A stretch of DNA of 51,604 bases from Treponema sp. (lineage in GTDB: Bacteria; Spirochaetota; Spirochaetia; Treponematales; Treponemataceae). Below are positions 4,179 to 42,147 of this stretch, in pieces. Position 1 is the first letter of the stretch; each line of letters begins with the position of its first letter. The stretch is from assembly GCA_017449285.1 (NCBI GenBank), contig JAFSJX010000029.1, positions 1-51,604 of the forward strand. Direction: 5' to 3'. Position numbers and translations under genes: made by a program. Below the pieces are notes generated by a model, which was not told the origin of the DNA, ran no database searches, and was given only the letters and a program-made list of their open reading frames with translations.

Positions 4179-4184
4179 TATACT
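4179..4184 (+). promoter_or_regulatory. -10 box TATACT, 7 nt before the ATG (leaderless start)
   Basis: TATACT ends 7 nt before the ATG of the MBL hydrolase gene at 4192 and no Shine-Dalgarno is present. With a usual -10 to +1 distance, transcription would begin at or next to the A of the start codon. The same arrangement is seen at 7169-7174, 26786-26791, 29178-29183, 33361-33366, 34630-34635 and 38492-38497 (plus strand), and at 33268-33273, 34549-34554, 37989-37994 and 42096-42101 (minus strand). Confidence 0.65.
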
Positions 4185-4191
4185 GTACTAT

Positions 4192-5100
4192 ATGAAGATG
4201 ACCTTACTGGGAACAGGTACGAGTCAGGGCGTTCCGGCGATTGGATGCGATTGCAAAGTATGCACTTCCTCAGACCCGCATGACAACCGGCTTCGGTGCA
4301 GCGCATATATCGTTCATAAAGAAACAGAACTGCTCATTGACGTAGGACCGGAATTCCGCTTGCAGGCGTTGCGCAATCACATCAAGCATTTGGACGCGGT
4401 GCTGATTTCGCACAGTCATGCTGACCATCTGCACGGACTTGACGATTTGCGCATTTTCAGCCACACCCGTCCATGCGATTGTGACGCGCTGGCGTTCCCG
4501 GAGACAGAGGGAAACGGTCTTCCGATTTATGCGAACGCAAACACACTGCAGGACATCCGCTACCGTTTTGACTATCTTTTTAAGCCCGTGGTTGAAGGCG
4601 GAGGAGTTGCGAAACTTGACTTTCGGAATTGCTCTGCGTATAACGGAGCAAACCCGATTCGTTTTGGCGGCATTGCGGTCGTTCCGATTCCTTTACAGCA
4701 CGGAAGCATTGAGGCGACAGGCTGGCTTCTTTCTTGTGACGCGGCGGACGGAGCAAAACACAGCATCGCATACCTGACGGACTGCAACGCCATTAGCGAA
4801 GCGTCTTTTGCGCTCATCAAAAATAATTGCGGTACGCTTGACCATCTGGTTATCGACGGGCTTCGCGTTCGTCCTCATTCAACGCACTTTAGTTTTGACG
4901 AAAGCCTTGCGGCGGCAGAAAAATTGAGTCCGCGGCATACATGGCTTATCCACATGAACCACGATTTGCTTCACACCGAAATCCAGAAATACATTGACAC
5001 AAAACTGGACAATTTTCCTTTGCTGAAAAAAATCGTGCAGAACGGCGGAAGCGTAAGCCCCGGCTACGACCAACTGGAATTGGAAATTCCTACACGGTAA
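4192..5100 (+). CDS. MBL-fold metallohydrolase, PhnP-like (302 aa)
   Basis: This is a metallo-beta-lactamase fold hydrolase of the PhnP-like type. The N-terminus has a glycine-rich strand-loop (LLGTGTSQGVP, residues 5-15), then a Cys cluster C-D-C-K-V-C at 19-24 as in PhnP-like phosphodiesterases. The metal-binding motif HSHADH lies at 74-79. Later His residues (PLQHGS and the C-terminal LIHMNHD) supply further ligands. A cyclic phosphodiesterase activity is likely for the family, but the substrate is not evident. No phn genes surround it. Translation probably starts at 4192 on a leaderless mRNA (TATACT 7 nt upstream). The 3' end overlaps the convergent EAL-domain gene by 11 bases. Confidence 0.88.
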   Translation: MKMTLLGTGTSQGVPAIGCDCKVCTSSDPHDNRLRCSAYIVHKETELLIDVGPEFRLQALRNHIKHLDAVLISHSHADHLHGLDDLRIFSHTRPCDCDALAFPETEGNGLPIYANANTLQDIRYRFDYLFKPVVEGGGVAKLDFRNCSAYNGANPIRFGGIAVVPIPLQHGSIEATGWLLSCDAADGAKHSIAYLTDCNAISEASFALIKNNCGTLDHLVIDGLRVRPHSTHFSFDESLAAAEKLSPRHTWLIHMNHDLLHTEIQKYIDTKLDNFPLLKKIVQNGGSVSPGYDQLELEIPTR

Positions 5101-7003
5101 TTTTTCCAGTCGTAATGCCGTCCAACGCCTGTTCTTTGGGCATGGGTTTTCCGAACAGATATCCCTGCATCCTCTCGCAGCCAATAGAACGCAAAAATTC
5201 AAAGATTTCCTCGGTCTCTACGCCTTCCGTAAGCGTCTGCATACCGATTTCTTTTGCAAGAGAAACGATACTTTTGAGAATCGGGCGGATTTTTTCGTTT
5301 TCAGAAAAATTATGCAGAAATTTCATGTCTATTTTCATCATATCAAATTCAAAATCTTGAAGAACATTCAGCCCCGAATAGCCTGACCCAAAATCGTCCA
5401 GCCAGAGCGCGTACCCCTCGCCTTTAAAGCGGTCGATTGCCTGTCTTAACTGCACTCCGTTTTCGCTCAACGCGCTTTCGGTAATCTCCACGTGAATCAT
5501 ATCTTTTTGCACGGCATGGCGATTCAGGCAGTCATCTACAGCGGCAACTACGTCAATCAACTCAAAATCAAGCCGCGAAAAATTGATGGAGATAGGAACA
5601 TAATACGTTCCAGTTTTTTTTGCCTCAAAAATGTCTGTACAAACTTTTTCCAAAATGTACATATCCAGTTTGTAAATCTGACGGTATTCTTCCAGCACGG
5701 GAACAAAATCCGCCGGCGGCAACATTCCATACACCGGGTCTTCCCAGCGCGCAAGGGCTTCCATTCCGCATAACTTTCTGTTCTCCGCAAGCACTACCGG
5801 CTGATAAAAAACTTTTATCCAGTTTTCTTTTATCGCCCTGTCTATGCTGTTTATGACGTACTGTTTGCGGTGGAATTCATCGTCCATCTCTTTGGTATAT
5901 TCACAGAAATTCCGTCCGTATTTCTTTTTGATGCTGTTACAGGCATAACGAGCGCGGTCACAGGCAACACTCGCCAAAACATCGCGATCCACAGGAATGT
6001 ATGCCCCTGCCTTCAGACCCAACTGCACCTCATTCTCATCTTTCTGAATTCTTCTGCGCACTTCGTCAATGCGAACCTCTATCTGGTCTCGTTTTGCCAA
6101 AATCACAAAATGGTCATCAGAAAAGCGGGCAATAAGCGAAAATGGAAACACCAGACGAATTGCTTCCGCAGTCTTTTTAAGCAGCTCATTTCCCATCGGA
6201 AAACCGTAGCGGTCATTATAACTTTTGAAATTCTCAATATCAAGGTACAGAAACGCCAATTTAGAAATATCTTCCTTTGGGTCAAGCAGTATGGAGAGAG
6301 CCTTGTTGCGGAAATAGTGCATATTCGGAATGCCCGTCAAATCATCGCGCGTAGATTTTTCTTTGAGATACGAGTTGATTCTATCCAGACTTTCGTCCTG
6401 TTTTGCCTCCATCAGTTTCTGCGTATACACATTGACGCTCGTCATCAAAAGAGCAATCCACATCGTAAAAACGTTGATTTTCATGCCAGAATCTATGGGC
6501 GTGGCAGTACGGCCACAGAAATACATGAACGCAAGAAAAGAAATTGAAAGCAAGGCAAACGCCCAAAGCGGTCTCCAAAGAAACAGCCCGAACACAAAGA
6601 TGGTCATCGTGACAAATGCAAATGCCTGATGCGCTTTCGCATAATCCAGATAACCGATGTATATGCCAAAAGCAAGGCAGATGAACGCAAAGCCATAGCG
6701 GATAATGCGTCCGACCATACGCGATGGATTTTTTCCCCGAAGCTGCAAAATCGAAAAGACAAGGAGCGCGACCGCAGACAAAAGCAGAATTATGTAAGAT
6801 GAAAGATGCGAGACTATCCATGAAAATGTGCGCGCCTTTCCGCCAAAAACAACATTCTCAATAACAGACCCAATCATCCACAGTTCCAGCGTAATCACAA
6901 CGACAGAAAGGTAGATACTGGAAATGGCATTTGAACGGTCAAAATATTTTTTTACAGCGGGACTATAACTTTCCAGCCCCAAAACTTTTCGTATATTCAG
7001 CAT
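5090..7003 (-). CDS. Membrane-bound EAL-domain c-di-GMP phosphodiesterase with degenerate GGDEF domain
   Basis: The first ~200 residues contain about six hydrophobic segments and make up a membrane sensor part. A GGDEF domain (about 215-375) follows, with DDLTGIPN at its start, but its active-site loop reads RFSDDHF where RxGG(D/E)EF is expected. The usual GHxxGD is GFPMGN, so cyclase activity should be lost. The EAL domain (about 385-630) keeps its key motifs: GMEALARW, the INFS strand, VEITES, LDDFGSGYSGL and EGVET. The likely role is hydrolysis of cyclic di-GMP, possibly regulated by nucleotide binding in the dead GGDEF domain. c-di-GMP controls motility and attachment in spirochaetes. AAGG, 8 nt before the ATG, is a plausible ribosome site, with TATAAT about 20 nt upstream. 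Confidence 0.92.
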   Translation of the reverse strand: MLNIRKVLGLESYSPAVKKYFDRSNAISSIYLSVVVITLELWMIGSVIENVVFGGKARTFSWIVSHLSSYIILLLSAVALLVFSILQLRGKNPSRMVGRIIRYGFAFICLAFGIYIGYLDYAKAHQAFAFVTMTIFVFGLFLWRPLWAFALLSISFLAFMYFCGRTATPIDSGMKINVFTMWIALLMTSVNVYTQKLMEAKQDESLDRINSYLKEKSTRDDLTGIPNMHYFRNKALSILLDPKEDISKLAFLYLDIENFKSYNDRYGFPMGNELLKKTAEAIRLVFPFSLIARFSDDHFVILAKRDQIEVRIDEVRRRIQKDENEVQLGLKAGAYIPVDRDVLASVACDRARYACNSIKKKYGRNFCEYTKEMDDEFHRKQYVINSIDRAIKENWIKVFYQPVVLAENRKLCGMEALARWEDPVYGMLPPADFVPVLEEYRQIYKLDMYILEKVCTDIFEAKKTGTYYVPISINFSRLDFELIDVVAAVDDCLNRHAVQKDMIHVEITESALSENGVQLRQAIDRFKGEGYALWLDDFGSGYSGLNVLQDFEFDMMKIDMKFLHNFSENEKIRPILKSIVSLAKEIGMQTLTEGVETEEIFEFLRSIGCERMQGYLFGKPMPKEQALDGITTGKITV

Positions 7004-7181
7004 TGTACATACCTTATATTTTCATTATACCACAAGATTCCACAATTCGCACGAAAAAACAAGATAAACACAGCATAATTTTTTTTTGCTTCGGAAAAAA
7101 CGACCGACAAAAAAGACTAAAATCACCGTCAGCAAGATAAATCAATAGACGAAATTTATATTCTATTGTATACTGTAATGT

Positions 7182-9416
7182 ATGGGTGGAATAAAAAGTG
7201 GGGTATCAGCATCGGCTGAAAAAAAGCCGGTAGCAGCATCGTCTGCGGTCAAAAAAGCGACCGCTACAAAAGCAACAGCAACGAAAAAGGTGGTTTCGAC
7301 AGGCTCTACCGCCACAAAAAGCGCGGGAAAACCAGCAACAAAAACGACGGCATCAGTGACAGCCGCAAAAACCGCGTCTGCAAAAAGTGTGGCAAAAAAA
7401 CCGGTCGCAGGCGTGGACGAAAACGGCACCTTCCGCGCATGGGCAAACGCAAAATCCGTGGCAAAATCAAAGAAGTCCGCTCCGACCGCTTCTGGCTCCG
7501 TCATGGATAAGGCGACCGACAAAAAATCGCTGGCTGAGGCGGAAAAAAAACTTGCCGCGGCAAAGGCCGCCGACCCCAACGCAGGAAAGCCCCAAAAGAC
7601 GGTCGCCGACTACACGGACGACAAAATTCAGCATTTGGACGCGCTGGAGCATATCCGTCTGCGAAGCGGCATGTACATCGGACGGCTCGGCGACGGCTCA
7701 AACCAGAACGACGGCATTTACATTCTGCTCAAGGAAATCATCGACAACTCCATAGACGAATTCATTGTGGGCTTCGGTACGCGCATTGACGTAGAAATAA
7801 AGGACAATCACGTTAAAGTGCGTGATTACGGACGCGGCATTCCGCTGGGCAAAGTGGTGGACTGTGTTTCCGAAATCAACACGGGCGGAAAATACAACGA
7901 TGACGTGTTCCAGTTTTCCGTAGGCATGAACGGTGTGGGTACAAAGGCTGTCAACGCGCTCTCATCCTACTTCCGCGTCATTTCCATCCGCGACGGAAAA
8001 TGCACCGAAGCCGTGTTTGAGAAAGGCAAACTCAAAAACCAACGCACCGGTCCGCTCAAGCAGAATCTTCCCAACGGCACATTCTTCGAGTTCGTTCCCG
8101 ATGAGACCATCTTCGGAAAATACAGTTTCAATATGGAATATGTGGAACGGCGCATCTGGAACTATGCCTATCTGAACACCGGGCTGACCCTGCGGCTGAA
8201 CGGAAAAGATTTTGTCAGCCAAAACGGGCTTCTTGACCTCCTTCAGAGCGAAATAGAGACGGAATCAATCTATCCTGTAGGAAGTTACGTGGGTGAGCAC
8301 CTCAAATTTGCCTTTACCCATACCAATGCTTACGGTGAGAACTATTTTTCATTCGTAAACGGGCAGTTCACTAGCGATGGCGGAACGCACTTGAACGCAT
8401 TCAAAGAAGGATTCATCAAGGGCGTAAACGATTTCTTCCATACAAACTATAAGTCTGAGGACGTGCGCGACGGCATTACGGCGGCGGTTCTGGTCAAGGT
8501 AAAAGACCCCGTCTTTGAAAGCCAGACCAAAAACAAACTGGGCAACACCGACATCCGCGCGTGGATTGTCGCCGAAGTGCAGAGTGGCTTGGACAACTGG
8601 CTGCACAAAAATCCAAAATCTGCCGAAATGCTCCAGAAAAAAATCGAGGCAAACGAAAAACTCCGCACGGAACTTTCCAGTGTCAAAAAACAGGCAAAGG
8701 AAAACGCAAAAAAACTGAGCATCCGTATTCCCAAACTCAAAGACTGCCGCTATTTTGTGCAGGACGGGAAAAAAGGCGAGAACAGCATGATTTTCATTAC
8801 CGAGGGTGACTCAGCATCCGGCACCATGACCCATTCCCGCAACGCCGACTATCAGGCCATTTTCTCCCTGCGTGGAAAGCCTGAAAACATGTACGGCAAA
8901 AAACAGAGCGACATCTACAAAAACGACGAATTGTACCAGCTGATGATGGCACTGGGCATCGAGACCAGCGTAGAAAACCTCAAATACGCCAAAATTGTCA
9001 TTGCCACCGATGCCGATAACGATGGCTTCCATATCAGAAACCTGGTGCTCACGTTCTTTCTGGGCTATTTTGAAGAACTGGTCACCAGCGGCCGCGTGTT
9101 CATTCTGGAAACGCCACTCTTCCGCGTGCGCAACAAAAAAGACAACATCTACTGCTACTCGGAAGGCGAACGCGATGCCGCCCTCAAAAAACTGGGCGCA
9201 AGTGCCGAAGTCAGCCGCTTTAAGGGTCTCGGCGAAATCAACCCCGATGAATTCAAGCAGTTCATCACCCCCGAAACCATGCACCTGACCCCCGTAGAAA
9301 TCAGCCAGCTCAAGGTGATTCCCCAACTGCTCTCCTTCTACATGGGCAAAAACACGCCGGAGCGAAGACACTTCATTGAGGAACATTTGCTGAGCAATGC
9401 GGAAATTGATGTGTAG
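7182..9416 (+). CDS. parE: DNA topoisomerase IV-type subunit B with histone H1-like N-terminal tail (744 aa)
   Basis: This is the ATPase subunit of a type IIA topoisomerase. GHKL motifs are visible: KEIIDNSIDEF (N box), VRDYGRGIPLG (G1) and VGMNGVGTKAVNALSS (G2). The Toprim domain has FITEGDSASG and TDADNDGFHIRNL. The end lacks the long GyrB insert, and parC follows downstream, which favours topoisomerase IV-type ParE. About 145 residues precede the conserved start (DDKIQHLDALEHIRLRSGMYIG). They are almost entirely Lys, Ala, Thr, Ser and Val (KKATATKATATKKVVS and similar) and resemble histone H1-like tails. This extension is not part of normal ParE. The gene has a TATACT box 7 nt before the ATG and no ribosome site, so it is probably leaderless. 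Confidence 0.93.
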   Translation: MGGIKSGVSASAEKKPVAASSAVKKATATKATATKKVVSTGSTATKSAGKPATKTTASVTAAKTASAKSVAKKPVAGVDENGTFRAWANAKSVAKSKKSAPTASGSVMDKATDKKSLAEAEKKLAAAKAADPNAGKPQKTVADYTDDKIQHLDALEHIRLRSGMYIGRLGDGSNQNDGIYILLKEIIDNSIDEFIVGFGTRIDVEIKDNHVKVRDYGRGIPLGKVVDCVSEINTGGKYNDDVFQFSVGMNGVGTKAVNALSSYFRVISIRDGKCTEAVFEKGKLKNQRTGPLKQNLPNGTFFEFVPDETIFGKYSFNMEYVERRIWNYAYLNTGLTLRLNGKDFVSQNGLLDLLQSEIETESIYPVGSYVGEHLKFAFTHTNAYGENYFSFVNGQFTSDGGTHLNAFKEGFIKGVNDFFHTNYKSEDVRDGITAAVLVKVKDPVFESQTKNKLGNTDIRAWIVAEVQSGLDNWLHKNPKSAEMLQKKIEANEKLRTELSSVKKQAKENAKKLSIRIPKLKDCRYFVQDGKKGENSMIFITEGDSASGTMTHSRNADYQAIFSLRGKPENMYGKKQSDIYKNDELYQLMMALGIETSVENLKYAKIVIATDADNDGFHIRNLVLTFFLGYFEELVTSGRVFILETPLFRVRNKKDNIYCYSEGERDAALKKLGASAEVSRFKGLGEINPDEFKQFITPETMHLTPVEISQLKVIPQLLSFYMGKNTPERRHFIEEHLLSNAEIDV
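7289..7313 (+). repeat. REP-like imperfect palindrome inside the parE tail
   Basis: The segment starts GGTGGTTTCGACAGGCTC and ends ACCGCC. It closely resembles a dispersed palindrome family whose arms are GGTGGTT and AACCACC. A related copy with arms GGTGGTT/AACCACC lies at about 23548-23582. In parE it encodes residues in the Lys/Ala/Thr tail. Confidence 0.4.
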
Positions 9417-9428: not shown

Positions 9429-10400
9429 ATGACGATAGTATCACTTTTCAGTGGGGCAGGTGGTCTCGACTACGGAATAAAATCAGCAGGAAACGATATT
9501 CTCTGGGCAAACGATATAGACAAAAATGCAGTTGAAACTTACCGCCACAATATCGGAAATGAAATTCATTGTGCTGATATATCAAACATAAACATAAAAG
9601 ATATTCCTGACAGTGATGTCGTTATCGGCGGTTTTCCATGTCAAGGATTCTCACAGGCAAATTTAAGACGGACGATTGATGACGAGCGAAATCAGCTCTA
9701 CAAGTTTTACTATCAGGTGATTGAGGAAAAACAACCGCTTTTCTTTATTGCTGAAAATGTAAAAGGTATTTTGAGCCTTGGTGATGGAGAGGTTATAAAG
9801 CAAATCTTAGCAGATTTTGAATCGGCTGGATATGTCGTTGAACTTCATAAAGTGAACATGGCAAATTACGGCATACCTCAGACAAGAGAACGTATTCTCA
9901 TTATCGGGCAGAACAAAAAAAAGATTGGTAACAAGATGCTTTTTCAGTTTCCCAAAGAACTTTATTCAAAAGATGGTCTAAACGGACTTCATAAATGGGT
10001 TTCGATAAAAGATGCTTTGGATGCATATCCCGACCCTGACCAACCGAATGTCTTGAAAAATCATATTTATTCAAAATATAAAGTCGTTTATAGAAACTTC
10101 ACGGCACATCGCCAGACAAATCCAGATTACCCGTCTCCAACAATTCTTGCACGAGGAAACGGAAAAGGCGGAGTCTGTGCTATCCCTCATTACAACGGAA
10201 AAAGACGGTTGACAATCCGTGAAAGCGCGGCGATTCAGACATTTCCTGATGATTTTGAATTTTTCGGCTCAATGGGAGCGTGTTACCGCCAGATTGGAAA
10301 TGCCGTTCCTGTAAAATTTGCAGAGCTTTTAGGAAAGGAACTTGTACGACTTGAAAAAGAGGAACTGCACGAAAAGACGAAGGAGAAAGCAACGGCATGA
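9429..10400 (+). CDS. DNA (cytosine-5-)-methyltransferase, first of a tandem pair (323 aa)
   Basis: All core m5C methyltransferase motifs can be read: I (LFSGAGGLD, 6-14), IV with catalytic Cys71 (GGFPCQGFS), VI (AENVKG), VIII (QTRERI) and X (QIGNAVP). At 323 residues it has a short target-recognition region between VIII and IX. The start at 9429 has an AAGGAAAGA ribosome site and lies 12 nt after the parE stop. The next methyltransferase starts at an overlapping ATGA. This gene, its neighbour and the HNH gene form one operon that is visibly AT-richer than parE and parC, consistent with horizontal acquisition. Two m5C enzymes together suggest an asymmetric site with one enzyme per strand. Confidence 0.95.
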   Translation: MTIVSLFSGAGGLDYGIKSAGNDILWANDIDKNAVETYRHNIGNEIHCADISNINIKDIPDSDVVIGGFPCQGFSQANLRRTIDDERNQLYKFYYQVIEEKQPLFFIAENVKGILSLGDGEVIKQILADFESAGYVVELHKVNMANYGIPQTRERILIIGQNKKKIGNKMLFQFPKELYSKDGLNGLHKWVSIKDALDAYPDPDQPNVLKNHIYSKYKVVYRNFTAHRQTNPDYPSPTILARGNGKGGVCAIPHYNGKRRLTIRESAAIQTFPDDFEFFGSMGACYRQIGNAVPVKFAELLGKELVRLEKEELHEKTKEKATA

Positions 10401-11323
10401 AAGTCGTTTCTCTTTTCAGTGGTGCTGGTGGTCTCGATTTAGGCTTTAAAATGGCAGGGCATGAAATCATTTGGGCAAACGACAATTTTCCCGAAGCCGT
10501 AGAAACTTATAAAACAAACCTCGGCAAACATATTATCTGCGAAGATGTTCATAATATTGATGTCACAAAAATTCCAGATTGCGATATTGTAATCGGAGGC
10601 TTTCCATGTCAGGGATTTTCAATCGCAAACATGAAACGCCATGCCGATGACAGCCGAAACGAGTTGTATAAAATGCTTATAAAGGTAATCACTGAGAAAC
10701 AACCGAAATTTTTTGTTGCTGAAAATGTAAAAGGCATTCTTTCGCTTGAACACGGTGAAGTCATAAAAATGATAATGAAGGATTTTAACAGTATCGGTTA
10801 CACAGCAGAATACAAAGTCCTAAATGCGGCTGATTACGGAGTACCTCAACTTCGCAATAGGGTTATTATAGTTGGCGTAAAAAATGGCATTGATTTTAAA
10901 TATGAATATCCTAGACCAACTCATAATGAGAACGGTTCTGGCGGACTGAAAAAATGGGTTTCTGTTGGTGAAGCTTTGAAAGATATTCCAGATCCTGATT
11001 TGCCAAACTCTGTTCTGAATCATACTTATTCGCAATTCAAATTGAAGTTCAATGGTTATATCGGAAACAGGGAAATTAACCCAAACAAACCGGCACCAAC
11101 GGTTACGGCACGAGGAGATGACAAAGGCGGTGTTGTCGTCCTTCATCATCCTAACAACAAAAGAAGAATGACTTGCAGAGAACTTGCAACAGTACAAAGT
11201 TTTCCATTGAACTATGAATTTAAGGGTAATCGTTCTTCAATTTATCGGCAGATAGGAAATGCTGTTCCTCCGCTTCTTGGAAAAGCAATTGCAGAACAGT
11301 TCAATTTATACAGGGGAAAGTAG
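10397..11323 (+). CDS. DNA (cytosine-5-)-methyltransferase, second of a tandem pair (308 aa)
   Basis: Motif order is as in the preceding gene: SLFSGAGGLDLG, GGFPCQGFS (Cys71), AENVKGILSL, the QLRNRVIIVG motif VIII, and IYRQIGNAVPP. The two proteins are clear paralogues. They align without large gaps, and long stretches are nearly the same (SLFSGAGGLD, VIGGFPCQGFS, AENVKGILSL, GNAVP). They differ most in the target-recognition part (residues about 215-255). Divergence there fits recognition of different strands or half-sites. The gene overlaps its upstream neighbour by 4 bases and is 2 bases before the endonuclease gene. Confidence 0.95.
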   Translation: MKVVSLFSGAGGLDLGFKMAGHEIIWANDNFPEAVETYKTNLGKHIICEDVHNIDVTKIPDCDIVIGGFPCQGFSIANMKRHADDSRNELYKMLIKVITEKQPKFFVAENVKGILSLEHGEVIKMIMKDFNSIGYTAEYKVLNAADYGVPQLRNRVIIVGVKNGIDFKYEYPRPTHNENGSGGLKKWVSVGEALKDIPDPDLPNSVLNHTYSQFKLKFNGYIGNREINPNKPAPTVTARGDDKGGVVVLHHPNNKRRMTCRELATVQSFPLNYEFKGNRSSIYRQIGNAVPPLLGKAIAEQFNLYRGK

Positions 11324-11325
11324 CG

Positions 11326-12597
11326 ATGTTAGATAAAAATTTTATTCCAAAGAAGCCGTTTGATGACTTTAAATGGAAATGGGCGACACTTGCTCCTACT
11401 GAAAGTATAAACGACCCTGTTGTTTTGCTCGGCGTTTTGTTCAAATTGAATACGCTTGCAAAGAAAAATGTTAAATTCAGTTCTGAAGAATATGACGTAG
11501 CCATGAAAGAACTTCAATCAGATTTGGACAGTGCAAAAATTGATGTAAATGTAACTGGCAGGACAGGTGACAGGAATTTATTCCGCAATTCTGGGCAATA
11601 TTGGAAGGCACTTGGACTTATTCCAAAAGATTCGCGGGGCATTATTACACTTACAGATTTTGGTAAGTCGGTAGCCGATAGAAAAATTTCAAAGACAGAG
11701 TTTTCTGCAATTACGATTCAAACGCTTTCTCTTCCAAATGACAGAATCCAATCAAAAGAGGAATGTGATTTGTGGGAGAAGCACAATATAAAAATCTTTC
11801 CGCTCAAAATAATTCTTTCAACCTTGCATCTTCTTAAAGATATGGAAATTAACAAGGAATCGCAGGGGTGGATTACACCTGACGAAGTGATAAAAATTAT
11901 CATTCCACTTTCTGCCTGTAATGCAACAACTGAAGATTATGCGAACTTTATATACTGGTATCGCACGAATCAAATTTCTCTTGAAAACTGGTCAGACTGT
12001 GCAACAAGAGCAAACGATAAACGAATTGCCAGAGAATATCTTTTATTTTTGGAAAATTATGGTTATATATCATCAAGTAATATCATTACAGGAAATCGTT
12101 TTGAGCAAAAATATCTGTATAATGTAGAATTTGACGAAGAAATTATGAAAATTCTTGCTGTTCCGCAAAACAAAATTGACCTTTATGAACTTATGAAAAA
12201 TACAAGCACTATCTCTGCCGTTCAGAACATTGAGAGAAAACGCTACAATAAAAACAACTCGCGACCTCTACAGGCTCAGTTCAGACAAGATTTGCTTTCG
12301 GTTTCTAATAAATGTCTCATTACACAGGTTCGTATGGTCGGGCTTTTGGAAGCCGCCCATATCAAACCGCATAAGTATAATGGCCCGGAAGAAAAAGACA
12401 ACGGAATTCTGCTTCGCCGTGATATTCACTATCTTTTTGATTCGGGAAATCTTCGTATTGATGTAAACGGGAACGTATTTATTTCCCAGCCGACTTTGGA
12501 AGATTATGGAAGGACTATCCCGGAAAGAATAGAAATTCCAGACTATGTGAATAAAGACTATATACGCTGGAGATGGGAAAACTACGATGGGGCTTAA
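11326..12597 (+). CDS. Putative HNH-type restriction endonuclease (423 aa)
   Basis: The C-terminal part (about 325-390) has an HNH_2-type nuclease signature: a Cys before it (NKCLIT), then LEAAHIKPH (first His), KDNGILLRRDIHYLFD (Asn and second His) and SGNLRI. The N-terminal ~320 residues show no recognised domain but contain helix-rich, winged-helix-like segments that could carry DNA recognition. Two bases separate it from the methyltransferase pair. That position makes it the presumed restriction enzyme of the cassette. Cleavage specificity cannot be read from sequence. Codon use is AT-rich, like the methyltransferases. Confidence 0.8.
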   Translation: MLDKNFIPKKPFDDFKWKWATLAPTESINDPVVLLGVLFKLNTLAKKNVKFSSEEYDVAMKELQSDLDSAKIDVNVTGRTGDRNLFRNSGQYWKALGLIPKDSRGIITLTDFGKSVADRKISKTEFSAITIQTLSLPNDRIQSKEECDLWEKHNIKIFPLKIILSTLHLLKDMEINKESQGWITPDEVIKIIIPLSACNATTEDYANFIYWYRTNQISLENWSDCATRANDKRIAREYLLFLENYGYISSSNIITGNRFEQKYLYNVEFDEEIMKILAVPQNKIDLYELMKNTSTISAVQNIERKRYNKNNSRPLQAQFRQDLLSVSNKCLITQVRMVGLLEAAHIKPHKYNGPEEKDNGILLRRDIHYLFDSGNLRIDVNGNVFISQPTLEDYGRTIPERIEIPDYVNKDYIRWRWENYDGA

Positions 12598-15656: not shown

Positions 15657-15742
15657 CGGAAAATCTCCTCTCTTGGTGTTGGTCTGAAATTTGAACTTTC
15701 GGATAGTGTAGCACAAAACAGGAGAATTTGCTATCATACAGT

Positions 15743-21704: not shown

Positions 21705-21775
21705 AGTTTTTGTAGTATAGCACTTTTCCTAAGTTTGTACCATATCCTGCGCAAGAAGAAGAGTCCAAAAAAGAT

Positions 21776-26711: not shown

Positions 26712-26797
26712 CTCTTCTTTATATTTTCGGCGTTTTTCTGCTGTGACTATATACCAAATCGGTGGATAGTTCCTGCGTTTTTCGCTATACTGGATTT

Positions 26798-27283
26798 ATG
26801 AAAGTTGACCTGAACAAAGTCCTTGTCGTCACGCTTGCCGGCATAGCGGTTGTCATCATTTTAGGTACGGCAGTCGCCATCTTCTCAAAAAAGGCAGTTC
26901 CTGGAGCGGGCTTACGCAAAAATGACCCCACACCAGAGCAGACGGCGGCGATATTCCAAAAGCAGCAGAAATCGGCGTTCACCAAAATCGGGCAGTTACG
27001 CACATCGACCGCCCCCGATGAAAACGACAATCGTTCGGTCATCGTCATTACACCGTGGCTGGAATACGCAGGAAATGACGCGGCTTTTTTTGAGGAACTG
27101 GACACCAAACTCCGCTCAATCCGCGCAAGTATCACAAATTATTTTAACAACTTCACCAAAGACCAGCTGCTTTTCCGCGGAGAATCGCTCGTCAAAGCAG
27201 ATTTGCTCTTCCAAATAAACGAATCGCTCGTCCTCGGCAAAGTCACCGCGATTTATTTTAACGAGTATCAGTTTTTAGACTGA
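26798..27283 (+). CDS. FliL-like membrane protein (161 aa)
   Basis: A single N-terminal TM (VLVVTLAGIAVVIILGTAVAI) is followed by a periplasmic domain. Its strands and helix match the FliL pattern: SVIVITPWLEYAG, a helix LRSIRASITNYFNNFTKDQLL, and INESLVLGKVTAIYFNEYQFLD. FliL surrounds the flagellar stator and supports torque. This gene is outside any visible flagellar operon, so it may be a paralogue. Start 26798 was chosen because TATACT lies 6 nt upstream and the TM signal starts there. No ribosome site is present, so it is probably leaderless. Confidence 0.65.
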   Translation: MKVDLNKVLVVTLAGIAVVIILGTAVAIFSKKAVPGAGLRKNDPTPEQTAAIFQKQQKSAFTKIGQLRTSTAPDENDNRSVIVITPWLEYAGNDAAFFEELDTKLRSIRASITNYFNNFTKDQLLFRGESLVKADLLFQINESLVLGKVTAIYFNEYQFLD

Positions 27284-29060: not shown

Positions 29061-29189
29061 ACCATCTCTCTGACAAAAACCAAAACGAGCAACAAAAAAA
29101 ATGGGAAAAAAATTGACGTACAAAAGATTACAATGCGTTCACCTTGCAATTTCATAGACTTTTCCGCATTCCTGCATTATACTAATGGT

Positions 29190-30254
29190 ATGGACGCGCG
29201 ATTTTTCTCACGGTTGCATAAGATTGAATCCGTTCTCGCAGAGGCTTTGCCGCACAAGACCAATGACGCATGGCAGACGCTTTCGTTCGGTGCGCTTGAC
29301 CCGTGCGTAGACCAGCGGCACATCGGCGAACTGATTGCCCCGAATTACGAGTTGCTTTCGCTTGGTGGCAAACGATGGAGACCGCTTCTGCTCGTGCTGT
29401 GCGCGGAACTTGCCGCCGATGCAAAAAAGACCTGCGCCGCAAGCATTGAAGTCGCCTACCGTCTTACGCCGTTCGTTGAATTTGCGCACACCGCAAGCCT
29501 TATCCACGATGATATAGAAGATTCTGCCGATATGCGGCGCGGAAAACCAGCGGCTCATCTTACGTTCGGAATGGATGTCGCGCTCAATGCGGGAAGCTGG
29601 CTGTACTTTGAGGCGGCAACGTGCATCGAAAACATCAACCTGCCCGAATCCCAAAAAAATATGTTCTACGCGCTCTATCTGAACGAACTGCGCCGCCTGC
29701 ATCTTGGTCAGGCAATGGATATTCTCTGGCACAGAAATCCCGCGCTCATTCCGTCCGTCGAAGAATACACGGCAATGGTGCGAAACAAAACAGGAACGCT
29801 CGCCCGCCTTGCCGTCAAAACAGGAATCCTTGCAGGAAATGGAACGGCGGAAGAAGCCGACACCGCAGGAAAAATTGCGGAGGACATCGGCGTAGGTTTT
29901 CAGATTATTGACGACGTAACCAATCTGACCACGGGAAATCCCGGCAAAAAGCGCGGAGACGACATCGTAGAGGGAAAAAAATCCCTGCCTGTGCTGCTAC
30001 ATTTGCAGGAGCATCCCAATGCCCAGCCCAAACTGGAAAAACTGTTCGCCCAGGCGCGGCAAGAAGGCATTGATTCTCCCGCGGTAGAAGCCGCAATCGC
30101 CCTGCTTTCCACCAGCAATGCAATTGAAAAAGCCCGCGCAAAGGGTCAGCAACTGGTTCAGCAGAAAAGTCGTGACCTTGCCGCGCTGTATTCGACCGAT
30201 TGCGAAGCGTCCCAGTTGATTATTGGGTTGTTTGATAGTATGCTTAACAAGTGA
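29190..30254 (+). CDS. Trans-isoprenyl diphosphate synthase (354 aa)
   Basis: This is a prenyl chain elongation enzyme of the FPP/GGPP synthase family. The first Asp-rich motif is IHDDIEDSADMRRGKP (DDxxD). The upstream LLSLGGKRWRPLLLVLC holds the conserved GGKR-x-RP substrate-binding loop. The second Asp-rich region is GFQIIDDVTNL, DDxxN instead of DDxxD. GKKRGDDIVEGKKSLPVLL matches the conserved C-terminal motif. The product chain length cannot be read with certainty. The start at 29190 follows TATACT by 6 nt with no ribosome site, so it is probably leaderless. It heads an operon with a TPR protein (6 nt gap) and an RseC-like protein. Confidence 0.9.
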   Translation: MDARFFSRLHKIESVLAEALPHKTNDAWQTLSFGALDPCVDQRHIGELIAPNYELLSLGGKRWRPLLLVLCAELAADAKKTCAASIEVAYRLTPFVEFAHTASLIHDDIEDSADMRRGKPAAHLTFGMDVALNAGSWLYFEAATCIENINLPESQKNMFYALYLNELRRLHLGQAMDILWHRNPALIPSVEEYTAMVRNKTGTLARLAVKTGILAGNGTAEEADTAGKIAEDIGVGFQIIDDVTNLTTGNPGKKRGDDIVEGKKSLPVLLHLQEHPNAQPKLEKLFAQARQEGIDSPAVEAAIALLSTSNAIEKARAKGQQLVQQKSRDLAALYSTDCEASQLIIGLFDSMLNK

Positions 30255-32441: not shown

Positions 32442-33260
32442 CTACCCCACATTTTTCTGATACAGACAAGCCCAGTCAGTCTTCAGAAACTCAAATTTTG
32501 TCTCCATACCGAACAAAGACTCCGAATGGCCGATAAACAAATATGAGTGAGCCGCCATTGAATTGTAGAAACGGTCGATAACAGCCTTCTGAGCAGCCTC
32601 GTCAAAATAAATCAGGACGTTACGGCAGAAAATCACGTCCAGATTGCGCATACCAGAATCGTTGCGAAGATTATGGTAGTCAAATTTAATCTTTGACATC
32701 AGTTCGGGAGTCGCCTGATATCCTTTGTCGTTTTTCGTAAAGAATCTGTCAAGATATTTTTGGGGAATACCCGTAATGCGGGACTCAGGATAGAATCCCT
32801 GCTGACCGACCATCAGCGATTTTAGAGAAATGTCCGATGCCGTAATATGGAATTTGTACGGCGGTGGCAACACATCGCAAAGAATCATCGCCAGCGTATA
32901 CGGCTCTTCCCCCGTTGAGCAGCCCGCGCTCCAGATGTTGATGGTATGGTCGCCCGTTTTTTTCTTTTGCTCAATAATATGAGGAACAACGTAATTCACC
33001 AGCGCGTCAAAATGCGGCTGATTGCGGAAGAAACGTGTCAAATTCGTCGTAACCGAATCCAACATAAGCTTCATCTCTTCTTTGTCGGACATGATGAGTT
33101 TGTAATACTCACCTACGGAAGCAATCTGCTTTTCGCGGAGTTTCTCTTTTAAACGGCTGTCCAAAATTGAACGATTCGTTGAGGAAAAAGTAATTCCGCT
33201 CTGGTCATAAATGACTTTTCGGAACATATCAAATTCTGCGTCTGTTAATAAGTCTGCCAT
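32442..33260 (-). CDS. cheR: Chemotaxis protein methyltransferase CheR (272 aa)
   Basis: CheR methylates receptor glutamates. The all-alpha N-domain (FDMFRKVIYDQSGITF) is followed by the SAM domain with WSAGCSTGEEPYTLAMIL, ITASDISLKSL and DVIFCRNVLIYFD, all diagnostic. The conserved NLTRFFRNQ motif is present. The start is ATG 33260: TATAAT ends 7 nt upstream, a TTTACA -35 box lies 17 nt further up, and no ribosome site exists, so this gene is probably leaderless. It forms an operon with cheB. Confidence 0.95.
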   Translation of the reverse strand: MADLLTDAEFDMFRKVIYDQSGITFSSTNRSILDSRLKEKLREKQIASVGEYYKLIMSDKEEMKLMLDSVTTNLTRFFRNQPHFDALVNYVVPHIIEQKKKTGDHTINIWSAGCSTGEEPYTLAMILCDVLPPPYKFHITASDISLKSLMVGQQGFYPESRITGIPQKYLDRFFTKNDKGYQATPELMSKIKFDYHNLRNDSGMRNLDVIFCRNVLIYFDEAAQKAVIDRFYNSMAAHSYLFIGHSESLFGMETKFEFLKTDWACLYQKNVG

Positions 33261-33372
33261 AATGAATATTATACACCCACAATCCAAAATTGTAAATCAA
33301 ATTAAAATTTTTTTTAGGCTGCCGGCAAGGCTTCGTATTCCCCTATGCGCGTGAATTCGCTATACTCTCTTC

Positions 33373-33855
33373 ATGCTGAAAAAATATCTGTGGATTTTTT
33401 TAATTTCGATGATACCGCTGATTGAACTGCGAGGGGCAATCCCGGTCTCTCAGGCACTGGAACTGCCGCTTCTTCCTTCATATATTATTTGCATTATCGG
33501 AAATATGATTCCTGTGCCGATTATCTATCTGTTCGCACGGAAATTTTTGGAATGGGGACAAGATAAGCGGCTGATTGGTGGAATCTGTACGTTCTTTCTG
33601 ATAAAAGGAACAAAGGCTGGTCAGAAATTGCAGGAAAAAGCCGGCCGCGGTCTTTTCTTCGCGCTGTTTTTGTTCGTGGGAATCCCGCTTCCAGGAACAG
33701 GCGCATGGACGGGAACGCTCGCGGCAAGTCTTCTGAACATGAAATTCAAAGACACCGTGATTGCCGTGCTTGCCGGAGTGCTTTTTGCCGGCGTGATTAT
33801 GATGCTGATTAGTTTTGGTGCATTCAGTGCGCTGTTCGCCGCTCTTGGCAGATAA
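33373..33855 (+). CDS. Small multidrug export-like membrane protein, COG2426 family (160 aa)
   Basis: The family signature is visible: SMIPLIELRGAIPVSQAL at the start, GNMIPVPIIYLFARKFLEWG, and GIPLPGTGAWTGTLAASLL. Four or five hydrophobic segments predict an inner-membrane protein. The family is annotated as small multidrug exporters, but direct evidence for transport is thin. TATACT ends 6 nt before the ATG with no ribosome site, so it is probably leaderless. The stop lies 3 nt from the convergent HAD gene. Confidence 0.85.
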   Translation: MLKKYLWIFLISMIPLIELRGAIPVSQALELPLLPSYIICIIGNMIPVPIIYLFARKFLEWGQDKRLIGGICTFFLIKGTKAGQKLQEKAGRGLFFALFLFVGIPLPGTGAWTGTLAASLLNMKFKDTVIAVLAGVLFAGVIMMLISFGAFSALFAALGR

Positions 33856-33858: not shown

Positions 33859-34542
33859 CTAGCGCAAAAGCGGAAGAATCTGCCCCGGATGCGCACAGGT
33901 GATGTCGGCAAGCGGAACAATTCTTCGCCAGTCTGTCTCAGGTGGCTCGCTAAGGTCTTCGGCAGAAGTATCGTACACTGCCACCACTGGGAAGCCAGCG
34001 TTGTGAGCGGTGCGGATTGCGTAGAGCGAGTCCTCAAAAACGACGGCATTCTGCACGGGAACGCCAGCCATTTCCGCGCTCTTCTGGAAAATGAGTGGCT
34101 GGCTTTTCGACGTGTCAAAATCCTCGCAGCTGTTCAGGCGGAAAAAATACTTCTCAATGCCAAGCCTATGCAGACACGCGCGAACCAGCCGTTTGTCCGT
34201 TGCCGTCGCAAGAATCGCAGGAACGTGCAGTTCAGCCAATCGCTGAAGCAGTTCCATCGCCCCTGGTTTAAGCGGCAAATCCGTGCTGTAATGGCGCAAT
34301 GCCGTATCATCAATTTCTTCTATTATATTCTCCACCGATTCAGAAAAACCGTAGTTGTCCTTAAAATACTGCGCCGTTTCCGTGGAATTAAGCACCTTCA
34401 AATCGTACCACACATTCTTCGCAGGCGTTTTTCCATGGGTGCGAATAATCTCTTCTCCCAGCGTCCGCCACATCCACATCGAATCAAGCAACGTGCCGTC
34501 CATATCAAAAATCGCGCATTTCATCGTCTCTCGAATATTCAT
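33859..34542 (-). CDS. HAD-superfamily phosphatase, beta-phosphoglucomutase-like (227 aa)
   Basis: Motif I is FDMDGTLLDS (nucleophile and acid Asp). A cap domain follows (GFSESVENIIEEID), then motif II in VPAILATATDKRLV, and motif III/IV in FQKSAEMAGVPVQNAVVFEDSLYAIRTAHNAG. This is the layout of the phosphatase/phosphomutase subfamily with an inserted alpha-helical cap; the substrate is unknown. ATG 34542 was chosen because TATACT ends 6 nt upstream; an in-frame ATG further up would lie in or before the promoter. A decayed paralogue lies at 41747-42088. Confidence 0.88.
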   Translation of the reverse strand: MNIRETMKCAIFDMDGTLLDSMWMWRTLGEEIIRTHGKTPAKNVWYDLKVLNSTETAQYFKDNYGFSESVENIIEEIDDTALRHYSTDLPLKPGAMELLQRLAELHVPAILATATDKRLVRACLHRLGIEKYFFRLNSCEDFDTSKSQPLIFQKSAEMAGVPVQNAVVFEDSLYAIRTAHNAGFPVVAVYDTSAEDLSEPPETDWRRIVPLADITCAHPGQILPLLR

Positions 34543-34641
34543 ACTGCAAGTATATCGAAAACGACGCATTTTATCCATTGATGATTTTAATTTGATTTTA
34601 ATTTTAATGACAAATACGTTTTCTTGTGTTATAATAACGAT

Positions 34642-35481
34642 ATGAAGATTCAGCCTTTGCGGGGAAAACTTAAACTGACCAATGACGGCTCACTGGCGTT
34701 TTTTTTCGTGGGAACGGGGAGCGCGTTCAGCAGGAAGAATTTTCAGAACAATATTCTTGTCATAAAGGGCAACGACCATCTGCTGATTGACTGCGGTTCA
34801 CTCTGCCCTTATGTGCTTTCCACATACGGCATTTCCATCGGCGACATACAGAACGTGCTGGTCACTCATTCTCATGCTGACCATATCGGTGGACTGGAAG
34901 AGATGGCGTTCACAGGAATGTACAACACAAAGCAGAAACCAAACATGATTATCTGTGATGACTACAAAAAAATTCTCTGGGAGCAGAGTTTGCAGGGAGG
35001 CTGTGGCATAAGCGATGCGCAACCAGGCTTTTCAATGCAATTTGACGATTATTTTAATCAAATTGCGCCCAAACCGCTCCCAAATTCCCCCCGTCCACTG
35101 TATCACACAAAAATAGGTTCAATCGACATAAAAATCTTTCGGACGGTTCATATTCCGCCGGCAACAGATGACTGGAACAATATGTTCTATTCAATAGGCG
35201 TGCTGATTGATGACCGCATCCTGTTTCCCGCAGACACAAGTTTTGACAAGCCTCTTTTGGACTGGATGCTCAAGGACTATCCGATAGAATGGATTTTTCA
35301 CGACTGTCAGTTTTTTTCAAGCGGCGTGCATACCAGTTATGACGAACTGAAAACTTTGGAATCTTCCACAAAGAAAAAAATATACCTGTGCCACTATGGC
35401 GACAATTTTGAATCCTACGACCCAAAAAAAGACGGATTTGCGGGATTCGCACAGCGTGGCATTTATTACAACTTCGGCTGA
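34642..35481 (+). CDS. MBL-fold metallohydrolase, RNase Z/PhnP-like (279 aa)
   Basis: The N-terminal FFFVGTGSAFSRKNFQNN is the usual first strand and loop. The metal motif is VTHSHADHIGGLEE. Further ligands are likely in FRTVHIPPATDD, LFPADTS and the C-terminal IYLCHYGDN. It lacks the Cys cluster of the MBL protein at 4192 and is probably a different subfamily. The substrate is unknown. TATAAT ends 6 nt before the ATG, with an ATGACA -35 box 17 nt upstream of it, so translation is probably leaderless. It is divergent from the HAD gene. Confidence 0.85.
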   Translation: MKIQPLRGKLKLTNDGSLAFFFVGTGSAFSRKNFQNNILVIKGNDHLLIDCGSLCPYVLSTYGISIGDIQNVLVTHSHADHIGGLEEMAFTGMYNTKQKPNMIICDDYKKILWEQSLQGGCGISDAQPGFSMQFDDYFNQIAPKPLPNSPRPLYHTKIGSIDIKIFRTVHIPPATDDWNNMFYSIGVLIDDRILFPADTSFDKPLLDWMLKDYPIEWIFHDCQFFSSGVHTSYDELKTLESSTKKKIYLCHYGDNFESYDPKKDGFAGFAQRGIYYNFG

Positions 35482-37126: not shown

Positions 37127-37981
37127 TCAATTTTTTTTCACCGATTCCGTTGAATCTGCTGATTCAATTGATTCTACCGATTCGGCCAGCAAAAACGGAT
37201 TCTTTTTCAACTGAGCGAAGACCCCACGGTCTGCCCCGAACGGAACAATGCTCGGCTGGTCATACACAGGACTAATCACCACGCCGCAGTCAAGACAATG
37301 CAAGACAAAATCCGCATACCGCTCCTTCGCAATTTTGGGGAAAAGATATGGGCCTTTTCGCGTCCAATATTTTGCAAGCACCGTGTCATAGATGAACCAA
37401 TCCTTTTCCGAACGATTCTGCAACGCCGCAATCAGATTGTAGATTGACCGAGTGACCGCCGCACACAAAGGAGCCGCAAGACGCACACTTTCCACCACAC
37501 AAGGAAGTTCTGGACGAACAGCAAGAATCCAAATGCCCTGTGTCCACGCCAGCGGCGGCTCAATAATGACGGCATCAATCTCCGACCAGCGCACATTCTC
37601 TGACCACGGACGGAAAACGGATGTTCCCTGCGGCGCAATTTCGAGGGCAAGTTTGAGTGCAGATTGCTTTGAGGAGAAAACAAACACATTCCGCTCACCT
37701 GCCAAAAGTTCTGAGACCGCGCGCGCAAGCGGATTTTTTGCCGAACTGTCCGCGCGGGGAGTAAAATCAGTGTCAAAACTACCGGTAATACCGCGCGAAA
37801 GCACATTTTTCAGCACGGTGAACGCACTTGTTCCTCCCCAGCCCAGAATGGCTCGTCCCGCCTCCTGATACAAATCGGTCAGACGAACACCTTTTGCCGT
37901 GTACAAAAAGCATCCTCTGGCACGTTTGACCGTTCCGTACCGCTCCGTTATCTGAGCCGCAAGATAATTGACTTCATTCAT
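37127..37981 (-). CDS. Degenerate class III aminotransferase-like protein (284 aa)
   Basis: The first 55 residues (RYGTVKRARGCFLYTAKGVRLTDLYQEAGRAILGWGG) resemble the N-terminus of class III PLP aminotransferases, where a displayed G-x-x-L-x-D and a glycine-rich stretch occur. The rest is shorter than a normal enzyme (about 400-450 aa). I see no PLP-lysine motif, and DAVIIEPP is the only segment reminiscent of the usual IxEPxxx strand. It ends in a Ser/Glu tail (ESVESIESADSTESV). Likely a decayed or non-catalytic relative. The start at 37981 was chosen because TATACT ends 7 nt upstream; the ATG at 37984 is also possible. Confidence 0.55.
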   Translation of the reverse strand: MNEVNYLAAQITERYGTVKRARGCFLYTAKGVRLTDLYQEAGRAILGWGGTSAFTVLKNVLSRGITGSFDTDFTPRADSSAKNPLARAVSELLAGERNVFVFSSKQSALKLALEIAPQGTSVFRPWSENVRWSEIDAVIIEPPLAWTQGIWILAVRPELPCVVESVRLAAPLCAAVTRSIYNLIAALQNRSEKDWFIYDTVLAKYWTRKGPYLFPKIAKERYADFVLHCLDCGVVISPVYDQPSIVPFGADRGVFAQLKKNPFLLAESVESIESADSTESVKKN

Positions 37982-38046
37982 CATCAGCAGTATACCATAT
38001 TAAGCAAGTTTCTTCCACATCTTTTCGTGAAGTTCTGTGCGGAGTG

Positions 38047-38075: not shown

Positions 38076-38114
38076 ATAAAAACTCACGTAGAATCAATTC
38101 AAGGTAGGTAATAT

Positions 38115-38430: not shown

Positions 38431-38503
38431 TTTTAAATATCTACGGATGCAAGCAGGACAACCGCCTGTAGCATATTTTTTTGGAACTCGTTATAGTAAT
38501 CGC

Positions 38504-39910
38504 ATGAAATTCTTTTCCGTCACACGGCGCGCGCAAAAATATCGTTCTCCTTCCGCAGAAAATGCCATGACCGAAGGCGTTATCTGGAAAAGCCTGCTCA
38601 AATTCTTTTTTCCGCTTTTGATGGGAACGCTTTTCCAGCAGTTGTACAATACGGTGGACGCAATTATTGTTGGCCGTTTTGTGGGAAAAGAAGCCCTTGC
38701 CGCAGTGGGCGGAGGAACAGCCGTCTACCTGAACCTGCTGATTAGTTTTTTTGTGGGACTGACCAGTGGCGCGGGAATCATCATATCGCAATTTTTTGGC
38801 GCACGGAATGAAAGCGAAACAAGCCGAAGCGTCCATACTGCGATTTTCCTGTGCTTCGTGGGCGGACTGATTATGACAATAGGCGGACTAGCCGCAACAC
38901 CGTGGGTTCTGCGCATAATAAAAACGCCCGAAGACATCATGGGTCTTTCGCTCACCTACCTGAACATTTTTTTTGTGAGCATGGTACCGATGTTCATGTA
39001 CAATATGTGTTCCAGCATTATGCGCGCGGTGGGAAACGCAAAAGGCCCGCTCTACATTCTGATTGCCGCCGTCGTTACGAACATTGCGTTGGACTTGCTC
39101 TTTGTGGTGGCGTTCGGCTGGGGAGTGGCGGGCGTAGCGTGGGCAACCGTTGTATCTCAAGCAGAGAGCATGATTCTTTCGCTGGCAGTGCTTGCAAGGT
39201 CAAAAACGTCAGTTCGATTGCAGTTCAGAAAACTGGGATTTACGCCGCACATTCTGATAAAAATGCTCCGTCTGGGCTTACCAGGCGGCATTCAGTCCAC
39301 GTTCTACTGCCTGAGCAACATGATTATCCAGACGGCAATCAATTCGTTCGGCACAATTACAGTCGCGTCTTGGGCGGCGTTTGGCAAGATTGATGCGATT
39401 TTCTGGACGCTGGTCAGCACGATGGGAGTAGCCGTCACCACGTTCAGCGGGCAAAATTACGGCGCGCGAAAATATGACCGTCTTAAAAAATGTATGTGGC
39501 AGGCAATGCTGATTACCTTCTGTATGACCGCCAGTTGCACGGGATTCTTCCTGCTGACAGGGCAATACGTGTTCAGGCTGTTCACTACGGAGGCGGTCGT
39601 TGTGGCAGGGGGAATGCAGATTCTGCGCTTCCTTGCGCCGTGGTGGGTCAGTTACGTGGCGATTGAAGTGCTTTCGGGCATCATTCGTGGCGCAGGAGAC
39701 AGTTTTATCCCGATGGTGATTACGCTTTTCTGCGTGTGTGTTCTGCGCCTCGTGTGGCTTTTCACCGCCGTTCCCCACTGGAACACGATTCTGACCGTGT
39801 TAGCCTGCTACCCAATCACATGGACGACAACCAGCATATTGTTCCTCATTTACTGGTTCAGCGAAAAATGGCTTCACAAGCGGGAACAGATTTCGATACC
39901 GCAACGGTAA
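38504..39910 (+). CDS. MATE-family multidrug/cation antiporter (468 aa)
   Basis: This is a twelve-helix inner-membrane efflux protein. Typical MATE features are the first helix motif FFFPLLMGTLFQQLYNTVDAIIVGRFVGKEALAAVGG, the internal repeat GLPGGIQSTFYCLSNMIIQ, and AVTTFSGQNYGARKYDR. It probably exports cationic compounds using Na+ or H+. Start 38504 was chosen because TATAGT ends 6 nt upstream and no ribosome site is present. The stop is 1 nt from the convergent GH5 gene stop. Confidence 0.93.
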   Translation: MKFFSVTRRAQKYRSPSAENAMTEGVIWKSLLKFFFPLLMGTLFQQLYNTVDAIIVGRFVGKEALAAVGGGTAVYLNLLISFFVGLTSGAGIIISQFFGARNESETSRSVHTAIFLCFVGGLIMTIGGLAATPWVLRIIKTPEDIMGLSLTYLNIFFVSMVPMFMYNMCSSIMRAVGNAKGPLYILIAAVVTNIALDLLFVVAFGWGVAGVAWATVVSQAESMILSLAVLARSKTSVRLQFRKLGFTPHILIKMLRLGLPGGIQSTFYCLSNMIIQTAINSFGTITVASWAAFGKIDAIFWTLVSTMGVAVTTFSGQNYGARKYDRLKKCMWQAMLITFCMTASCTGFFLLTGQYVFRLFTTEAVVVAGGMQILRFLAPWWVSYVAIEVLSGIIRGAGDSFIPMVITLFCVCVLRLVWLFTAVPHWNTILTVLACYPITWTTTSILFLIYWFSEKWLHKREQISIPQR

Positions 39911-39911
39911 G

Positions 39912-41705: not shown

Positions 41706-41746
41706 ACGCACCTCCGTACCTGTTCTATTATAACACAGTTTACGAA

Positions 41747-42088
41747 CTAGTCAGCAAGCAATGGCAGGAATATGCAGTTCCTGGAGCCGCTTGAGCAATG
41801 CCTCTGCGCCCGGCTTGAGATACAAATCCGTGCTGTAGTGACGATACGCGCATCGTCAATTTCCTGAATGACATCTTCTACCGTACCCTCAAAATCATAG
41901 CGTTCAATCAGATAACGGGCAGTCTCCACGGCATTGAGCATTTTTTATTCGTACCACACATTTTTCTCAGGAATTTTTTCATGTGACCGAATCAAATCAT
42001 TTCCCAGTTCAGCCCACATTCCCATGGAATCCAGCAGCGTTCCGTCCATGTCAAAAATCGCGCATTTCATCGTCTCAAGCAAATTCAT
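41747..42088 (-). pseudogene. Decayed paralogue of the HAD phosphatase gene
   Basis: From ATG 42088 the frame reads MNLLETMKCAIFDMDGTLLD, nearly the same as the intact gene at 33859-34542. It stops at a TAA after NVWYE, then resumes (MLNAVETARYLIERYDFEGT). Further on it shifts frame and is truncated before motif II, so no active enzyme can form. The TATACT box 7 nt before the ATG is still intact. It was probably produced by duplication followed by decay. Confidence 0.85.
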
Positions 42089-42147
42089 AAATCCCAGTAT
42101 AGCAGAATAATGACAGGGATGAGAGGCTGGCGCATCTGCCTTATTGT

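Follow-up and report, generated by a model that had tools for sequence, protein, structure and literature searches.

The window analysed here is the whole of contig JAFSJX010000029.1 (51,604 nucleotides, read on the forward strand) from the Treponema sp. assembly GCA_017449285.1, and our subject is a class of predicted leaderless genes within it, in which a -10-like box of the form TATA(C/A/G)T (hereafter TATAVT) ends six or seven nucleotides before the ATG (spacings N6 and N7). An initial annotation had listed ten such starts, a HAD pseudogene start at 42088 that keeps the box, a TTTACA -35 match upstream of cheR, and metN as a near case at 9 nt; all of these are present, and are listed below with the evidence for each.

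4179..4194, plus strand: TATACT-N7-ATG of the MBL-fold hydrolase gene 4192-5100 (motif search)
7169..7184, plus strand: TATACT-N7-ATG of the ParE/GyrB-type gene 7182-9416, whose start reads ATGGGTGGA (motif search and relatives)
21714..21719, minus strand: TATACT 9 nt before the metN start at 21704 (MetN with PF00005 and PF09383)
26786..26800, plus strand: TATACT-N6-ATG of gene 26798-27283, with weak similarity to FliL (motif search)
29178..29192, plus strand: TATACT-N6-ATG of the polyprenyl synthetase gene 29190-30254 (motif search and relatives)
33258..33273, minus strand: TATAAT-N7-ATG of cheR, 32442-33260, with the TTTACA -35 match upstream (motif search and relatives)
33361..33375, plus strand: TATACT-N6-ATG of gene 33373-33855, PF06695 (motif search and relatives)
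34540..34554, minus strand: TATACT-N6-ATG of the HAD hydrolase gene 33859-34542 (motif search)
34630..34644, plus strand: TATAAT-N6-ATG of the MBL-fold gene 34642-35481 (motif search and relatives)
37979..37994, minus strand: TATACT-N7-ATG of gene 37127-37981 (motif search)
38492..38506, plus strand: TATAGT-N6-ATG of the MATE-family transporter gene 38504-39910, PF01554 (motif search)
42086..42101, minus strand: TATACT-N7-ATG of a 47-codon HAD remnant, 41945-42088 (motif search)

Across the window, TATAVT-N6-ATG occurs ten times and TATAVT-N7-ATG six times, compared with means of 0.43 (maximum 3) and 0.49 (maximum 2) in 100 shuffles. Predicted gene starts account for 11 of these 16 matches, and the other five lie away from them, at 1951 and 26227 on the plus strand and at 2977, 29167 and 44810 on the minus strand. 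Several of the individual starts carry qualifications of their own: that of gene 4192-5100 is consistent with a match to NCBIfam NF038231, beginning at residue 2, that scored below the family cut-off, the FliL similarity of gene 26798-27283 amounts to 39 bits against NF005175 (cut-off 218), gene 37127-37981 has another ATG at 37984 that is 4 nt from the box, the coding score by itself favoured an ATG at 38567 for the MATE-family gene, and the 47-codon HAD remnant has no Pfam match. For metN, the wider spacing would be expected to give a near-leaderless transcript with a leader of about 3 nt. guaA, which had been counted as another close case, is a doubtful one, with an ambiguous start: the only box near the ATG at 15743 is a TATCAT 5 nt away, and a TTG in the same frame at 15728, 15 nt upstream, is preceded by AGGAG. 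On the minus strand, a TATAAT (29167-29192) shares bases with the plus-strand TATACT that precedes the prenyl synthetase gene, possibly as a two-way -10 element.

The same spacing was then counted beyond the window. The source genome comprises 3,210,624 bases in 105 contigs, and the genome-wide test sample drawn from it, which includes the window, covers 812,559 bases and 717 genes (90% coding) predicted with a hexamer-model gene finder; this model replaced a codon-frequency gene finder that was dropped as too weak (306 genes). Candidates were all in-frame ATGs between the preceding stop codon and a point 90 nt beyond the coding-score start. TATAVT stands at N6 before 45 of these 1,179 ATGs, as against 1 of 4,085 internal ATGs, 1 of 585 GTGs and 0 of 766 TTGs (p = 1e-28), while the neighbouring spacings N5, N7 and N8 gave 3, 10 and 5. 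The N6 peak is thus specific to ATG starts, with none at GTG or TTG, and it persists when the 480 ATGs that are coding-score starts are taken alone (21 at N6 versus 2, 7 and 4 at N5, N7 and N8). In the whole genome, N6 and N7 together gave 262 matches versus 103 for the reversed pattern, whose different base composition makes it ill suited as a control; spacing N14 was therefore used instead, with 166 matches at N6 and 47 at N14, a control that may be conservative since N14 may contain ordinary short leaders. This is the genome-wide excess of the spacing that the initial annotation had proposed to look for, and whose absence would have refuted its reading. The 55 genes with TATAVT at N6 or N7, 45 of them at N6, are referred to below as the strict class. 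Its density in the window (11 of 47 genes versus 44 of 670 elsewhere, p = 4e-4; 11 of 47 versus 71 of 670 with the mixture model described below, p = 0.015) is not claimed as a local hotspot, because the window was supplied with the feature already noted.

Ribosome-binding sites are missing from these starts. A Shine-Dalgarno match of at least five bases precedes none of the 45 N6 sites, compared with 164 of 457 other ATG starts (p = 1e-8), and none was found in the 55 strict genes either (0/55). Among the window genes that had been described as having a normal ribosome site, yegP/DUF1508, cheB and GH5 do have sites resembling a Shine-Dalgarno sequence, and hslO (ATG 15737) has no match of at least four bases there. 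Coding character sets in right after the chosen ATGs, with coding log-odds per codon of +0.318 over the first 20 codons and -0.094 over the preceding 20. In cheR, the alignments begin at residue 1 in 29 of 29 relatives, and codons 2-16 of these relatives match our copy at rates of 0.83, 0.90 and 0.53 at codon positions 1, 2 and 3.

The surroundings of the box have features of a promoter. In the 45 N6 sites, which were selected for TATAVT, TTG at -35 to -33 and TG at -15/-14 are common, C stands at -13 in 23 sites, and the base at -1 is T in 38 and A in none, compared with 29-30% A at other ATG starts (p = 2e-6); no base preference at +1/-1 was seen at 49 other non-coding TGnTATAVT sites. Taken as a whole, the logo resembles that of an ordinary extended -10 promoter of the sigma70 type. 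When a mixture model is left free to learn both motif and spacing, the motif it obtains is TGnTATAnT; of 187 expected cores, 58 fall at N6 and roughly 10 at N9, N10-17 receives few, and a further group begins at N18. With a probability above 0.5, the model finds a core at 5-8 nt in 82 of 717 genes versus 13 of 4,085 internal ATGs. Strict counts have the same gap, noticed post hoc, with 15 sites at N10-17 and 88 at N18-40, the former being below an even spread (p = 0.004).

The box is kept in relatives of several of the window genes. For cheR, the prenyl synthetase, the 33373 type and the 34642 type, we took the best 30 loci each of 66, 58, 40 and 30 matches, own copy included. A TATANT box stands 5-8 nt upstream of the ATG in 27 of 29 usable cheR sequences, in 26 of 30 prenyl synthetase sequences, and in 24 of 30 sequences of the 33373 type, the other six of which have TANNNT; other four-base spacing ranges gave 0-3 matches for these three families. 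One of the cheR relatives (L140) has its -10 further upstream and GAGG before the ATG, which looks like a switch from a leaderless to a Shine-Dalgarno-led form, and in another (L143) this region lacks both the box and any clear promoter. The ParE/GyrB-type family was sampled by a scan of named genomes with the 744-residue protein, keeping 80 loci of 560 relatives, which are Treponema and other spirochaetes, many from gut or rumen (T. ruminis, T. zioleckii and T. berlinense are among the 80). An automatic start search, which found a TATANT box in just 9 of 63 loci, was set aside, having failed because the linker varies, and the search was restricted to in-frame ATGGG.GG starts, by which 37 of 79 loci were scorable (left out were 41 that lack a start of this form or lie at the end of a contig, and one that was cut). 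In these 37 Met-Gly-Gly starts, TATANT lies at 6-8 nt in 24 and at 9 nt in one, TANNNT at 6-8 nt in 11, and one has neither. Among the scored loci, parE of T. ruminis carries TATAAT-N8 and that of T. berlinense TAAACT-N7; the scored set does not include T. zioleckii.

From the observed motif, its spacing, the lack of Shine-Dalgarno sites, the use of ATG alone, the coding selection right after the ATG and the conservation, we infer the transcription start and the ribosome pathway as follows. About 82 of the 717 genes have a predicted extended -10 promoter 5-8 nt (mostly 6) before the ATG, and we hold it to be highly probable that these genes are translated leaderless. Because the promoter lies this close to the ATG and the strictest genes have no Shine-Dalgarno site, transcription of the class is likely to begin no more than two bases from the A of the ATG, if not on the A itself. 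The promoter would read TTG (-35), TGn, TATA(C/A)T, and six bases ending in T, followed by the ATG; a sigma70-type RNA polymerase would begin transcription at its A, a position that the T at -1 probably helps to define, and the resulting 5' AUG would likely be bound directly by 70S ribosomes, with a possible role for IF2. The leaderless reading of the initial annotation is strongly supported by spacing, absence of Shine-Dalgarno sites, ATG-only use, base -1 and conservation; its two additions, that the class would be unusual for a spirochaete and could have regulation of its own, are not supported, as discussed below.

Several points weigh against this reading. The N6 ATG is the coding-score start in only 21 of 45 cases, the other 24 lying downstream (16) or upstream (8) of the scored start, and one of the 55 strict genes has an in-frame, Shine-Dalgarno-preceded start within 30 codons downstream. 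In the logo of the 45 N6 sites, TATAVT was imposed by the search, so that only the mixture model learned the motif freely, and in three further genomes (G049, G044 and G087) that model drifted to other motifs and was unusable; only strict counts were therefore used there, giving 9, 11 and 2 sites at N6 and 9, 1 and 1 at N7. The 34642 type has TATANT at 5-8 nt in just 12 of 29 usable sequences, own copy included, with five scored as Shine-Dalgarno-led and seven having the box at 9-12 nt, and the expected 3' end of the 16S rRNA was not found in the source assembly.

Two alternatives that accept the boxes as promoters appear improbable to us, and about equally so. According to the first, the messages would have very short leaders of 1-5 nt and be read by a route that dispenses with Shine-Dalgarno pairing and needs a few bases before the AUG, as the common N7 and N8 spacings in relatives, the roughly 10 model cores at N9 and metN at N9 might suggest; in the source genome, however, N6 dominates, which would place +1 on the A itself. 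According to the second, the true start codons would lie further downstream and the leaders would be ordinary. The 24 ATGs that differ from the coding-score start speak for it, but Shine-Dalgarno-preceded downstream starts are rarer in the strict class (1/55) than in a mid-gene control (44/595), and both the coding signal and the codon-position conservation begin at the ATG, in cheR from codon 2 and with every relative aligning from residue 1; for these reasons the predicted ATG is very probably the true start. The weakest alternative, that TATA-like boxes arise by chance in AT-rich upstream DNA, we consider very improbable, since, even though background TATAVT-ATG matches are not rare in some relatives and single members of the class could be chance, the shuffled windows held far fewer matches than the 10 and 6 observed and the peak is sharp for the class, one base wide, specific to ATG and kept in relatives whose upstream DNA has diverged.

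Beyond the source genome, matches at N6 outnumber those at N14 in 58 of 58 genus relatives (6,712 versus 3,881 matches) and in 35 of 38 genomes that belong to other families of the order. In a survey of 159 genomes of the phylum, N6 exceeded N14 in the own genome, in every other genome surveyed from its genus (13 of 13), family (9 of 9) and order (5 of 5), and, elsewhere in the class, in 6 of 15 (family f7 0/7, f6 2/3, f8, f9, f11 and f12 1/1 each, f10 0/1). Family f20 gave 1 of 25 genomes, and the remaining 91 genomes of the phylum gave 11 (in total 9,993 versus 12,812). In a 400-kb piece of an f20 genome used as a control (G192), the strict N6 count of 8 lies inside the 1-8 range of the other spacings, and the refitted model found TATAAT promoters with 0 of 313 genes having one at 5-8 nt. 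Two of the 11 genomes counted among the remaining 91, G215 and G222, both of family f42 and outside the class, have a clear N6 excess, 224 versus 145 and 162 at N14.

Functionally, the predicted leaderless genes are mixed. A family scan covered 10 window genes and 40 of the 44 strict genes elsewhere (three of the remaining four crossed the end of a stretch); the candidates scanned include UvrB, ArgS, MnmG, dihydroorotate dehydrogenase, HisD, Mur ligases and Pth, as well as CobS, CheR, a response regulator and an ECF-type sigma factor, and 8 of the 40 outside the window had no Pfam match. No sign of a single regulon emerged from these functions, operators having been looked for no further than the logo, and the idea that the class could have its own regulation gains nothing from a logo like that of an ordinary sigma70-type extended -10 promoter. 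A divergent upstream neighbour is commoner among strict members (32 of 54) than among other genes (186 of 645), as would be expected of genes transcribed from a promoter of their own, and both genes are strict in 6 of 109 divergent pairs. At one locus (L015, G000:C29:120995/121042), two divergent predicted leaderless starts are just 46 bp apart, such that, by coordinates, each expected -35 touches the -10 of the other promoter; one of the two genes encodes NYN and OST-HTH domains.

The parE locus adds observations of a different kind. At the start of the ParE-type gene (7182-7190, ATGGGTGGA), all 37 scorable relatives have GGT as codon 2 and 36 of the 37 have GGA as codon 3, counts that are uncorrected for kinship among the loci; the third bases of both codons were free in the search, and GGT makes up 19% of Gly codons in the genome sample. 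The first nine bases of the predicted leaderless message, AUGGGUGGA, are thus nearly fixed across species, and the linker that follows is hypervariable, so that the message start is possibly a 5'-terminal mRNA element. We also entertain, as a tentative and joint proposal that we think more likely wrong than right, a two-way start system of gut Treponema that avoids leaders of about 4-11 nt, in which each gene would be either leaderless or long enough in its leader for a Shine-Dalgarno site and would be switched by promoter moves, as in the cheR relative L140, with AUGGGUGGA of parE hinting at such a 5'-terminal element. Downstream, between parE (7182-9416) and parC (12705-14675), the window contains two genes for C5 cytosine methylases and one whose product has an HNH endonuclease domain (9429-12597), which had no match at E 1e-15 near parE in the locus stretches of any of the 80 relatives. 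parC lies downstream of parE on the same strand in 52 of the 80, within 60 bp in 38 of these 52, and a restriction-modification cassette seems to have been inserted in the topoisomerase IV operon.

Taken together, the predicted leaderless genes are a clear and conserved set that lends itself to testing, since the clade includes gut spirochaetes in culture. The promoter box suggests itself as a guide for start-site annotation in the gut Treponema clade, and families with both leaderless and Shine-Dalgarno-led forms of one gene would allow the two to be compared. Leaderless starts are a known kind of gene start, found here in a lineage for which we found no description: judged by titles and the beginnings of abstracts, the literature searched included no paper on leaderless genes in gut Treponema, and the main text, as available, of a transcriptome paper on T. 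pallidum (PMC12223175) uses neither "leader" nor "untranslated". A review states, in the passage available, that the 5' AUG of leaderless mRNAs is bound directly by 70S ribosomes (PMC9031893).

That leaderless genes would be unusual for a spirochaete is not borne out by earlier work, as far as the available passages go. Zheng et al. 2011 (PMC3160421) predicted them in 6 of 18 Spirochaetes genomes, at a mean of 3.9% (1.8-6.9), and about 440 Leptospira interrogans mRNAs were mapped as having leaders shorter than 10 nt (PMC5243855); in the part of another study at hand (PMC5397173), six Spirochaetes have a negative mean, -3.25, on a component linked to Pribnow-like signals, and the phylum is not flagged. 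The Treponema class resembles the TA-led genes described in the excerpts from PMC3160421, in which a -10-like box about 12 bp before the start codon replaces the Shine-Dalgarno sequence, and differs from them in having TGn before TATA(C/A)T, a weak TTG at -35 and T at -1; its share, about 11% of the genes examined, is not directly comparable with their 3.9% because the models differ. Like Treponema, L. interrogans is a spirochaete with leaderless or near-leaderless genes, although those of Leptospira are RNA-mapped and those of Treponema predicted from sequence, and the Leptospira passages available (PMC5243855) give no promoter motif except sigma54 elements. The same arrangement is described in Deinococcus-Thermus, for which PMC3160421 gives, in the portion available, a mean of 39.4% of genes as leaderless: there too, according to the passages at hand from PMC12340547, a promoter -10 directly before the open reading frame drives leaderless genes, with the consensus TANNNT where Treponema has TATA(C/A)T.

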